Source: Ignavibacteria bacterium
Lineage (GTDB): Bacteria; Bacteroidota; Ignavibacteria; Kapaibacteriales; Kapaibacteriaceae
Direction of reading: 5' to 3'
DNA: 64,000 nt
Assembly: GCA_947495975.1 (NCBI GenBank)
Contig: CANMBE010000014.1
Span: 1 to 64,000 of the forward strand
The notes beneath the pieces are model-generated. The model worked only from the letters and a program-made list of their open reading frames with translations. It ran no database searches and was not told the DNA's origin. Below are positions 12 through 4,085 of the stretch, in pieces (position 1 is the first letter of the stretch; each line of letters starts with the position of its first letter). The position numbers and the translations under genes were made by a program.

Positions 12-127
12 CTTGGTGACGATTGCGCGGGGGTCACACCTCTTCCCATTCCGAACAGAGTAGTTAAGCCCCGTTGCGCCGATGGTACTGCATCTGAACT
101 GGTGTGGCAGAGTAGGTAGTCGCCAGG
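12..127 (+). rRNA. rrf: 5S ribosomal RNA
   Basis: The sequence has the 5S layout. The 5' end CTTGGTGAC pairs with the 3' end GTCGCCAGG to form the terminal helix, and the internal motif CCCATTCCGAACAGAG and the loop AAGCCCC are typical of bacterial 5S rRNA. The length of about 116 bases fits the family. The 23S and 16S genes are not in the window and presumably lie just upstream, making this the distal end of an rRNA operon. Ends are set from the helix and may be off by one or two bases. Confidence 0.95.
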
Positions 128-141
128 TATTCTTTCAAATT

Positions 142-177
142 GCTCCTGTTTGCGCTTGCAGACAGGAGCTCTTTGCG
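142..177 (+). terminator. Terminator after 5S rRNA
   Basis: GCTCCTGT and ACAGGAGC form an 8-bp stem around a loop of about 12 bases, followed by a short T-rich stretch (TCTTTGCG). It lies 14 bases past the 5S gene and would close the rRNA operon. Confidence 0.7.
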
Positions 178-240: not shown

Positions 241-248
241 TAGTTTTG
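241..248 (+). promoter_or_regulatory. TAnnTTTG promoter box before the receptor gene
   Basis: TAGTTTTG matches the -7 element of Bacteroidota primary-sigma promoters (TAnnTTTG). With the usual start four bases further on, the mRNA leader would be only about 8 nt. I see no clear -33 TTTG at the expected distance. A leader this short leaves no room for a cobalamin riboswitch. Confidence 0.45.
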
Positions 249-259
249 ATAGTTAGAAA

Positions 260-2179
260 ATGCACTGCCTCTTTCTCCTCTTCATTGTTGTCCTTTCCAC
301 TCCAGTTTTCGCTGCTGATAGTGTGCGTGTGGATACAACAAAACGTAGACCCGTTGTAGTAACAGCAGACAAATGGCTTACCGATGCAACAGGTGCAGGC
401 ATGCCCACAATTCAACTGAGCTCAGACATTTTGAACAGGCTGGCTCCTCAGTCTCTCATTGCAGTATTGCCACTCATCCCAGGCGTGTTCGTGCGCGACT
501 ATGGTGGACTTGGTGGGCTGAAGACTTTTTCAATCAGAGGGGGCTCGGCATCACAAGCACTCGTGATGATCGATGAAACACGAATGTCCTCTGCGCAAAA
601 CGGCACTATCGATATTGGTCTGCTACCCGCAAGATTCGTTGAGAACATCAGCGTCATTCGTGGCGGGGTATGCGCACTCTACGGCGCAAACGCAATGACT
701 GGTGCAATGGATGTGCATATGCGCGTTCCAGAGTCAACTTCTGTGCGCACGTTTGCAAGTGGAGGCTCTTTCGATGAATGGCGGTTGGCTCTAGGAGCAT
801 CGGCATCGATTGGTGTGGTGCGGATTGGCGCCGACGTGGAATCTCTTGGCACGTCGGGATCATTCCCCTTTCGCACAGATCAATTTGGCGAGACGTACAC
901 CATCAACCGCAACAACGGCGATGCCAAGTCAACCTCTGGCACGATGCGCGTAGAAGCTGATAACGTGGGATCATTCACGTTCCTTGGTCGAACAACAGAT
1001 CGTGGTGTACCAGGCGCAGTTGTCCAGGGAAACGTGACCAGCGCGCGTGCGAGATTGAGCGACGATGATTTCATTGGACTCCTTCGTATAAAATTATTTA
1101 CGCAGCCTACACACTCACTCTCGCTTGTTGGATCAGCGCGCCATCTAGAGCAACGCTATGCAGACCCTGACGCTACAATCACGGGTCCAGGAGGTATAGA
1201 CGTAACGTATCTACAGCGCGATGTTTCCTTTGGTGTTGTCTCCAAAAGTGTATTCTCAGGAGCACTCAACACCACGCGCATTGATGCGAACTATGCAGAC
1301 TTGAGCGGCGAGTCCATCATAACGGATTCTGGATCTCTTGTTCTGCGCAAGTCCATTGGCATATCAACGGATTGGCAATGGGATGGGGCTTTAGGTTCAC
1401 CGCTAGATATCCGCGTAGCCATTCGTGTTGACGGATTCTCAGATATGGGCTGGGCTGTCTCGCCCCTTCTGGCGATGAAGCTTGCGATTACTGAGACGGT
1501 TGCACTGCGTGCTTCTTGGAGTTATAATTTCCGACCTCCAACGTTTAATGAATTGTATTACCTGAATTATGGAACACGGTCATTGTCACCTGAACGATCG
1601 CAATCGATTGATTTTGGTATTGCAGTTCGACCATGGTCATGGCTTGCTGTTGATGTGGACGTATTTTCCATCATGACCAACAATCTCATTGTATCTGTTC
1701 CCGTGAGCCCCGTTATAACAAGTGCGCAAAATGTAGGCGCTGCACAATCACTCGGAATGGAAATTCTTGCAAGGGGCTCCTGGTTTGATGGACGCCTCAT
1801 TGTGCAATGGTCATACACAATACAGAATGTAACGGATCAGACAGGTCGCGCGAGTATTGATGGCACGATGATCCCATACTCTGTGCCAGAGCTCGCATCA
1901 GTGCTTGTGCAATGGGATGATTCAATATGGACGGGCTCTGTGCAGTGGGCGTATACGGGATATCGCTATGCGCAAGCAGGCGGAGAGCATACATCTCTGC
2001 TGCAACCGTTTGCACTCATTGGCGCACAGATTGGCGTGCACGTCCGTGGACGCAACACGCGCGCCGATGTGCGCCTACAGGTAGACAATGTGCTTGATGA
2101 AGCATACGTTGTGGTGCGTGGCTATCCCATGCCAGGCCGCGTCTTTCGTTTGTCAACATCAATTGTCATTAGTCCATGA
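260..2179 (+). CDS. TonB-dependent outer-membrane receptor, BtuB-like
   Basis: Predicted TonB-dependent transporter of 639 residues that would carry a scarce ligand across the outer membrane using TonB energy. A signal peptide (LFLLFIVVLSTPVFA) is followed by a TonB-box-like PVVVTADK and a plug domain (about residues 45-155) with IPGVFVRDYGG, FSIRGGSASQALVMIDE and ISVIRGGVCALYGANAMTGAMDV. The rest is a beta-barrel, ending in an aromatic-rich strand (RVFRLSTSIVIS). The size, close to E. coli BtuB (about 600), and the BtuG-like neighbour two genes down favour corrinoid as ligand. The ligand is inferred. It overlaps the next gene by 4 bases (ATGA). Confidence 0.88.
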   Translation: MHCLFLLFIVVLSTPVFAADSVRVDTTKRRPVVVTADKWLTDATGAGMPTIQLSSDILNRLAPQSLIAVLPLIPGVFVRDYGGLGGLKTFSIRGGSASQALVMIDETRMSSAQNGTIDIGLLPARFVENISVIRGGVCALYGANAMTGAMDVHMRVPESTSVRTFASGGSFDEWRLALGASASIGVVRIGADVESLGTSGSFPFRTDQFGETYTINRNNGDAKSTSGTMRVEADNVGSFTFLGRTTDRGVPGAVVQGNVTSARARLSDDDFIGLLRIKLFTQPTHSLSLVGSARHLEQRYADPDATITGPGGIDVTYLQRDVSFGVVSKSVFSGALNTTRIDANYADLSGESIITDSGSLVLRKSIGISTDWQWDGALGSPLDIRVAIRVDGFSDMGWAVSPLLAMKLAITETVALRASWSYNFRPPTFNELYYLNYGTRSLSPERSQSIDFGIAVRPWSWLAVDVDVFSIMTNNLIVSVPVSPVITSAQNVGAAQSLGMEILARGSWFDGRLIVQWSYTIQNVTDQTGRASIDGTMIPYSVPELASVLVQWDDSIWTGSVQWAYTGYRYAQAGGEHTSLLQPFALIGAQIGVHVRGRNTRADVRLQVDNVLDEAYVVVRGYPMPGRVFRLSTSIVISP

Positions 2180-3021
2180 CGAGGAGTCAGATGTTTTCCA
2201 TCGTTGTTTCGCTCGCAATGTTCGCTGTGTGCGTCACCAACACGAATGCTCAATGGCAAAGAGAGTTGTGTGATACAGTAATGCGTTTCATGCCAGGAAC
2301 GGGACAGACAAATGGTCAAGGTCCTGTGTTCTTTCCAAAGAATATCCTGAGTGGTCCATCGCGCATTGCTACAGAATTTGTTCCCGACACTGATCCGCGC
2401 GAGATCTGTTCCATTGGATTGGGTGGAAGTATTGTGCTCGGCTATCGTGGAGCGTTTATTGTGGATGGACCTGGCGCTGACATTGTAGTGATTGAAAACA
2501 CCTTTCGCTACTCAGCCCAGCGTATCTATGCAGAGCCTGCAATGGTTGAGGTGAGTCGCGACGGAGTTATGTGGAAGGCCTTTCCATTTGATTCCGCTAC
2601 GCTTATTGGCTGCGCCGGTGTTACACCCCTTGGGGATTCCTTTGATCTTTCTTCTGTTGGTGTTGATAGCATTCGATGGATCCGCATTACGGATGTAACA
2701 TCAATAGTGATCAATAATCCTAAACATGTTTATTATGATCCAACGCTGACCGGATTTGACCTAGATGTTGTTGTTGGTCTGCACGTTACTCCCACAGCAT
2801 TCGCGTTGGCATTGACCGACGTTTTTCCAACATCTTCAGTACGGATTGATGCGCCACAGGCATCTACAATTTACGTGTATGACAGTAGAGGTGCTGTGGT
2901 TCTCACAGCAGTCATTGCTGCCGGAGTGCGCATGCTTGATCTCGCCCCCTTGCCATCTGGTGGATATTTTGTTGTGCTTGATGATGGAAGTAGTCGTAGC
3001 ACATTAAAGGTATTGCGATAA
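2176..3021 (+). CDS. Sorted cell-surface protein in the corrinoid-uptake cluster
   Basis: Secreted protein of 281 residues with a signal peptide ending near TNTNAQ. The centre carries the pattern GLGGSIVLGYRGAFIVDGPGADIVVIENTF, which I associate with cell surface proteins found beside TonB-dependent receptors in FCB bacteria. The last 80 residues (VRIDAPQASTIYVYDSRG to GGYFVVLDDGSSRSTLKVLR) look like a type A C-terminal sorting domain for type IX secretion. The role is probably ligand capture or surface assembly, but this is inferred. An alternative ATG at 2191 has GAGGAG four bases upstream. The ATG at 2176 overlaps the previous stop (ATGA) and gives a signal peptide with a basic residue, so I kept it. 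Confidence 0.75.
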   Translation: MTRSQMFSIVVSLAMFAVCVTNTNAQWQRELCDTVMRFMPGTGQTNGQGPVFFPKNILSGPSRIATEFVPDTDPREICSIGLGGSIVLGYRGAFIVDGPGADIVVIENTFRYSAQRIYAEPAMVEVSRDGVMWKAFPFDSATLIGCAGVTPLGDSFDLSSVGVDSIRWIRITDVTSIVINNPKHVYYDPTLTGFDLDVVVGLHVTPTAFALALTDVFPTSSVRIDAPQASTIYVYDSRGAVVLTAVIAAGVRMLDLAPLPSGGYFVVLDDGSSRSTLKVLR

Positions 3022-4085
3022 TGAGAACGATTATCATCCTTGTGGTTGCCTCATTCTGCGTGCGTTGTGTTCCCGTTCCAACTGCGCCTGACCCGTCAAC
3101 CACGCCACTTGTCTCCGGTGGGTTCTTTGTTGTTTGTGAAGGCCTGTGGCGTCAAGACAACGCAACATTGTCCTTTATTACTCCAACGGGTTCAGCCGAG
3201 CGTGATGTTGTTTCTACGCGTAACGTTGGTCTACGTCTTGGTGATACGGGCAGCGACATTCTTGTGCGCGGAGACAGTATCTATGTGTGTGCAAGTACGT
3301 CTGGTACGATTGAAGTGTATCATCGATTAACTGGTATATGGAAGGGGCGAATCCGTTTTGAAAACGGACGCGAGCCATATCGTCTTGTCATTGTAAAAGA
3401 TCACGTTGCTGTTTGTTCTATACGAAACGATGATTGTATTGCAGAGATAGACCTGCGCTTGTTGACCGTTCGTGTGCCTCGTGCGCCCGCTGGACCAGCC
3501 CCAGAAGGCCTCTGTTGTCTCCGCGGTCGCATCTACGTAGCAAACAGTGGTCTTGGTGATCTGCGCCTAAAGGAGACTGGTGCTGGGACTGTTTCCGTGC
3601 TTGATGCAAAAGATCTCCGCGTCGTAAAAACGATTGAAGGCCTACCAAACGCGATGCAGTGCACAGCCGATGCCGTGCGTGGCCTCATCTGGTTTACGTA
3701 CCGTCACCTCGCAACAAAGCCCGATTCTCTCGGCGGCGTTGTTTGTTACGATCCGGCTCTCGATAGTATCATCGATCATCAACGATTTGTATCTCCGAAG
3801 GGGCTTGTCGTAGACCCTACGACGGGTATAATCTATGTTCTCCACCGCGATGGCATCGACTCATTTGACCGCAACACACAGACTCGTCGTACCATAGCAA
3901 CACACAAATCCACTAATGGCAATGATGTGTGGTACTCACTCGGTTGGTGGAAGAGTCAACGAGCGCTGCTCGTTGGCAACGCCCGCACCTACGTCACAGA
4001 TGGAGAAGTGATTGCTCTAGACCTCAACGGCAACGTGAGTTTTAAGGCTGGCGTAGGGCTGAATCCCTCGGCTTTTGCTGATTAG
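3021..4085 (+). CDS. BtuG-like (DUF5074/YncE) beta-propeller lipoprotein
   Basis: 354-residue exported protein; Cys residues at 13 and 16 after a hydrophobic segment suggest a lipoprotein, though the lipobox is not textbook. GGFFVVCEGLWRQDNATLSF (residues about 33-52) matches the first blade of the BtuG/DUF5074 family. Later segments such as RIYVANSGLGD, GTVSVLDAKDLRVVKTI and IIYVLHRDGIDSFDRNT are YncE-type blades. In Bacteroides, BtuG is a surface propeller that binds vitamin B12 extremely tightly and hands it to BtuB. Here the gene follows the receptor and sorted protein with a TAATG overlap, so co-function is likely. Corrinoid specificity is inferred. Confidence 0.72.
   Translation: MRTIIILVVASFCVRCVPVPTAPDPSTTPLVSGGFFVVCEGLWRQDNATLSFITPTGSAERDVVSTRNVGLRLGDTGSDILVRGDSIYVCASTSGTIEVYHRLTGIWKGRIRFENGREPYRLVIVKDHVAVCSIRNDDCIAEIDLRLLTVRVPRAPAGPAPEGLCCLRGRIYVANSGLGDLRLKETGAGTVSVLDAKDLRVVKTIEGLPNAMQCTADAVRGLIWFTYRHLATKPDSLGGVVCYDPALDSIIDHQRFVSPKGLVVDPTTGIIYVLHRDGIDSFDRNTQTRRTIATHKSTNGNDVWYSLGWWKSQRALLVGNARTYVTDGEVIALDLNGNVSFKAGVGLNPSAFAD

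Follow-up and report, generated by a model that had tools for sequence, protein, structure and literature searches.

The beginning of the stretch of DNA analysed here (64,000 nt, in the following called the window) raises the question of what a TonB-dependent receptor, a sorted surface protein, and a beta-propeller accomplish together when they are encoded by three overlapping genes, and how these genes are controlled if no cobalamin riboswitch precedes them. A preliminary description had regarded the cluster as encoding a variant of the B12 capture complexes known from gut Bacteroides. The BtuB, BtuG, and sorted-protein identities proposed there are upheld by the present analysis and refined in one respect, namely that the sorted protein is now connected with BtuH by sequence and fold evidence. 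We consider it likely that the trio represents an outer-membrane B12 capture operon with a BtuH-like protein exported by the type IX secretion system (T9SS), from which the riboswitch has been split off in the family Kapaibacteriaceae. What is new is the assignment of the sorted protein as BtuH-like and the finding that the operon is separated from the riboswitch across the family; the BtuH module as such has been described before in Bacteroides thetaiotaomicron, where it is fused to BtuG1. The features of the region are as follows.

12..128, plus strand: 5S rRNA (Rfam RF00001, 89.8 bits)
142..169, plus strand: terminator-like hairpin after the 5S rRNA with a 12-pair stem and a short T tail, TCTTTGCG
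241..248, plus strand: TAGTTTTG, operon promoter, -7 box of the Bacteroidota type, 11 nt ahead of the btuB ATG (from sequence, conservation in the genus, and box spacing)
260..2179, plus strand: btuB, TonB-dependent outer-membrane receptor, 639 aa (Pfam plug and barrel; PDB relative 8blw_A)
2176..3021, plus strand: middle gene, encoding a secreted, T9SS-sorted protein of 281 aa, BtuH-like (BtuH domain of BtuG1 matched by profile, fold match, TIGR04183)
2248..2805, plus strand: BtuH-like jelly-roll domain, residues 25-210 (AlphaFold2 pLDDT 93.7; Foldseek rank 1 8blw_B)
2497..2505, plus strand: codons of Asn108-Thr109-Phe110 (HMMER alignment to 7biz)
2839..3018, plus strand: T9SS type A sorting domain, approximately residues 222-281 (TIGR04183)
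3021..4085, plus strand: btuG, DUF5074 beta-propeller, probable lipoprotein (Cys16), 354 aa (PF16819, BtuG1 profile match)

The three co-directional ORFs overlap in the way initially proposed, btuB and the middle gene by ATGA, and the middle gene and btuG by TAATG. The closest solved relatives of both receptor and propeller are BtuB1 and BtuG1, encoded at locus 1 of B. thetaiotaomicron (8blw; PMC10404256). The btuB product contains a plug (PF07715) and a barrel domain (PF00593), both above the Pfam cut-offs, and retains the BtuB1 motif DYGGxGGLKTxS. Its best match among solved structures, covering nearly the full length, is BtuB1 (8blw_A; E 1.3e-92 with profile A3) rather than a siderophore or heme receptor, and all of the top ten PDB matches are BtuB proteins. 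The btuG product, which had been assigned to the DUF5074/BtuG propellers from the outset, passes the cut-off of PF16819 (DUF5074; 42.1 bits as compared to 27.2) and is nearest to BtuG1 (8blw_B; E 8.5e-54 with profile A2). Its Cys16 is invariant across the 31 rows of the alignment, and the protein is probably lipid-anchored through this residue. The btuG gene is one gene away from btuB here, and directly adjacent to it in other lineages. Among gut strains, BtuG has been reported from Bacteroidetes only (PMC6143338). Sets of BtuB, BtuG, and a second BtuG-like propeller, termed PROP2, also occur outside of the Bacteroidota, in two records of candidate division KSB1 (L150, L167).

The protein encoded between them combines a signal peptide with a jelly-roll domain and a T9SS type A tail. 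The tail reaches 25.6 bits with TIGR04183 (cut-off 23), in agreement with the earlier placement of a sorted protein between BtuB and BtuG, and stays under the Pfam cut-off of PF18962; homologues of the flavobacterial type reach up to 56 bits with PF18962. Searching the PDB with the single sequence gave nothing useful. A profile built from 35 relatives matched the BtuH domain of BtuG1 (E 1.4e-4) and, more distantly, BtuH2 (BT1956; 7biz; PMC8941943) at E 0.11, and a profile from a broader alignment reached E values of 5.4e-5 and 0.012, respectively. Up to E 1, no other PDB entries were matched except through the sorting tail, and the matches to BtuG1 and BtuH2 span only about 65 and about 95 residues, respectively, i.e., a part of the domain. 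The AlphaFold2 model of the domain alone retrieved 8blw_B, the BtuG1 chain that carries the BtuH domain, at Foldseek rank 1 (E 3.2e-5, TM 0.55 of the query). A fold search with the full-length model was left unused, as this model mixes two domains: beta-glucuronidases dominated the matches at rmsd values of 15-17 and a TM of about 0.2, and BtuH was not among the top 50.

In BtuH2, Asn399 contacts the phosphate of B12 and Phe401 its lower ligand (PMC8941943). Both residues are conserved in the window protein, aligning with Asn108 and Phe110 in the HMMER alignment to 7biz if the chain numbering is taken as offset by 100, a reading of the construct with which the residue types agree. Position 108 is Asn in 85 of 85 homologues, and position 110 is Phe in 80 of the 85. 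The further BtuH2 contacts Gln333, His476, Tyr510, Trp511, and Trp577 have no confident alignment position in the middle protein. As judged from sequence and model, the middle protein is probably a free-standing, T9SS-sorted BtuH-like B12 binder, and binding of B12 itself appears likely. We call it BtuH-like rather than a BtuH of the described type because it lacks the surface-lipoprotein architecture of BtuH, which often includes a PKD or propeller domain, and shows a signal peptide and a T9SS tail instead. BtuH has been described from gut Bacteroidales as a lipoprotein. Its module occurring as a free T9SS-sorted protein in many environmental Bacteroidota and some other phyla would provide a widespread unnamed protein with an identity and a testable function. 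An assignment to DUF4465/BtuJ was discarded, as Pfam gave no DUF4465 match. Most middle ORFs of the genus additionally carry an in-frame N-terminal DUF5522 (CCGxxCRHCP) before the signal peptide (L069, L070, L071, and L073-L078; 75 bits in the two tested), which is not present in the window protein and its closest relative.

Since BtuG1 of B. thetaiotaomicron carries a BtuH domain, the same three modules come together at its locus 1 and in the window operon. The two loci differ in that the former has the BtuH domain as part of the lipoprotein BtuG1 and the latter as a separate T9SS-sorted protein, and in that the former has riboswitches and the latter none. The lipoprotein BtuH2 begins with Ig-like PKD domains ahead of its BtuH part, whereas the window protein is devoid of such domains and ends with a T9SS tail. 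BtuH2 of B. thetaiotaomicron does not co-purify robustly with BtuB2 or BtuG2 (PMC8941943).

The middle gene was found in 63 of the 80 Kapaibacteriales genomes searched, and the btuB-middle-btuG trio with its overlapping genes is conserved throughout the Kapaibacteriaceae, as had been suggested for examination in other genomes of the group. Searches of the open-access literature for this trio in Kapaibacteriota or Ignavibacteria yielded no report. Beyond the family, the middle gene adjoins btuB and/or btuG in Ignavibacteria, Melioribacteraceae, KSB1, Caldithrix, and flavobacterial-type genomes, with varying gene order. In several families, it stands alone or together with btuG, with neither btuB nor a riboswitch nearby; within the stretches fetched, the loci of the order with such incomplete sets are L119-L121, L123, L124, and L128. 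An apparent fusion of middle protein and BtuG in L144 turned out to be an open frame of another reading frame.

With respect to regulation, the preliminary description had stated that no riboswitch precedes the operon, and Rfam scans for cobalamin-type riboswitches were indeed empty, both for the 64,000-nt window at gathering thresholds and for positions 1-700 at E values up to 10. None was detected beside the trio in any Kapaibacteriaceae locus scanned, either. What had escaped the earlier description is that the genome does contain a single cobalamin riboswitch on another contig (C12:35549-35760, minus strand), which lies directly before the gene for PROP2 on the same strand. PROP2 is a T9SS-tailed propeller and only weakly similar to BtuG1 (E 4e-4). 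Nearly all second loci fetched from Kapaibacteriaceae fit this arrangement of riboswitch and PROP2, as assigned by reading, the exception being a genome (G017) with two riboswitches, neither of which has a recognised PROP2 next to it. Among other Bacteroidota, the sister families included, the gene set mostly stands behind a cobalamin riboswitch, often with PROP2 as first gene. Outside of the family, 15 of 15 distinct operon loci scanned, which had been chosen for carrying the gene set and in which L168 and L222 represent one locus, have a cobalamin riboswitch upstream, with the middle gene coming first in some of them. The riboswitch-led PROP2-btuB-middle-btuG operons of other families of the order (e.g., L111, L118, and L147-L149) contain homologous genes in the same order, and the family of the window differs from them by having PROP2 and the riboswitch at another locus. 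Operons of the flavobacterial type (btuB-btuG-middle; L217, L218) combine the same three kinds of genes, including a middle protein with a T9SS tail, but deviate from the window operon in their gene order and in the presence of a riboswitch. The loss of riboswitch linkage is a trait of the Kapaibacteriaceae, whose middle proteins form one clade (100/99), a topology compatible with a single split event.

The -7 box of Bacteroidota promoters spans positions -12 to -5 (PMC9723704), which would put the transcription start of the operon at about position 253 and leave a leader of approximately 7 nt, close to the 8 nt estimated previously. The motif TAnnTTTG is no more frequent in the window than expected by chance (33 occurrences as compared to 33.6 expected), and the TAGTTTTG box is credible because its position is conserved in the genus: TAG[TC]TT[TC]G is present 6-13 nt before the start of btuB in all 11 genus members fetched, which as related genomes do not count as 11 independent events. 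The box spacing indicates leaders of about 2-9 nt across the genus, too short to hold a riboswitch, and the trio is therefore probably transcribed independently of B12 or through another regulatory factor. The hairpin at 142-169 may act as a terminator after the 5S rRNA, although comparable hairpins are as frequent in shuffled sequences, which makes it suggestive only. Because the contig begins at window position 1, the remainder of the rRNA operon falls outside of the assembly here. The contigs of several relatives likewise end inside an rRNA operon near the B12 operon.

In the proposed mechanism, BtuG as lipid-anchored lid and BtuB as TonB-dependent channel would act in the manner of the known lid-and-channel pair. 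The middle protein, presumably exported by the type IX system and not as a lipoprotein, would capture cobamides on the surface of the cell and may hand them over to BtuG and BtuB. In the ancestors of the family, the gene set would have been located behind a cobalamin riboswitch together with PROP2; the set would then have been split, the riboswitch staying with PROP2 elsewhere and btuB now having a promoter with a short leader.

Other readings of the proteins have to be weighed against this proposal. That the receptor imports not cobamides but, e.g., a siderophore or heme might be concluded from its score with the equivalog model TIGR01779, which is far under the cut-off (136 bits as compared to 599.7) and is equalled by other receptors of the genome. 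However, a Bacteroides control genome also stays under this cut-off, so the model does not define the BtuB proteins of Bacteroidota, and the exclusively BtuB-type PDB matches, the conserved motif, the btuG gene in the same operon, and the cobalamin riboswitches of orthologous operons render a different substrate extremely improbable. It is less far-fetched, but still unlikely, that the middle protein of a genuine B12 uptake operon is a jelly-roll accessory for binding carbohydrates or surfaces, which shares no more than fold and motif with BtuH: CBM32 and F5/8-type domains follow 8blw_B in the fold search, their E-values being weaker by a factor of only about five to ten, and the sequence match to BtuH is short. 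Against such an accessory function, BtuH tops the sequence as well as the fold matches, the conserved positions include the Asn and Phe that contact B12, and the middle gene is the first one after a cobalamin riboswitch in records of Melioribacteraceae and KSB1 (L168, L150, L165).

The split from the riboswitch leaves some room for B12 control by other means. A protein regulator or another small RNA element may have taken over, so that only the mechanism would have changed and the response stayed the same; this is conceivable, if not the expectation we favor, since, in addition to the conserved upstream box and its spacing, the genus shows further conserved letters nearby that could hold an operator, whereas the box itself corresponds to an ordinary sigma-A consensus. 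An expression by read-through from the upstream rRNA operon, with levels following the growth rate, would fit the end of the 5S rRNA about 130 nt before btuB and the rRNA that some relatives (L071, L073, L087) likewise have on the same strand ahead of the operon. We regard it as very improbable in view of the hairpin between the 5S rRNA and btuB and of other genus members that have no rRNA in the upstream stretch fetched and still keep the promoter box. Under the preferred reading of a capture operon separated from its riboswitch, the family-wide split of riboswitch and receptor would serve as a natural experiment to see if the uptake of B12 has to be controlled by B12.

The need for such an uptake system is apparent from the genome, which encodes MetH, methylmalonyl-CoA mutase, and an IcmF-like protein (named by reading the sequences), while CobS was absent in a genome search; the presence of B12 enzymes together with the absence of CobS implies that the cell needs imported B12. 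Neither FecCD/BtuC nor a BtuF-type binding protein was found in the genome, and FecCD is absent in 21 of 23 Kapaibacteriaceae genomes. The missing BtuFCD points to an importer of another kind in the inner membrane, for which a gene beside the riboswitch is a candidate. It codes for an MFS transporter resembling aromatic-acid/sialate symporters (L089:5802-7022, plus strand, contig C12) and lies divergently next to the riboswitch and PROP2 in most second loci, an arrangement conserved in nearly all genomes of the family, most of which lack BtuFCD. As a more speculative extension, to which we assign a rather low probability, the family may have freed its B12 capture operon from B12 control, retained the riboswitch on the secreted PROP2, and come to import B12 without BtuFCD, possibly via the MFS protein. 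Downstream of the riboswitch and PROP2, genes for a 1058-aa sortilin/BNR-repeat protein and a PAP2 phosphatase (L089:1063-4239 and 467-1066, both on the minus strand) are located, which recur in Kapaibacteriaceae.
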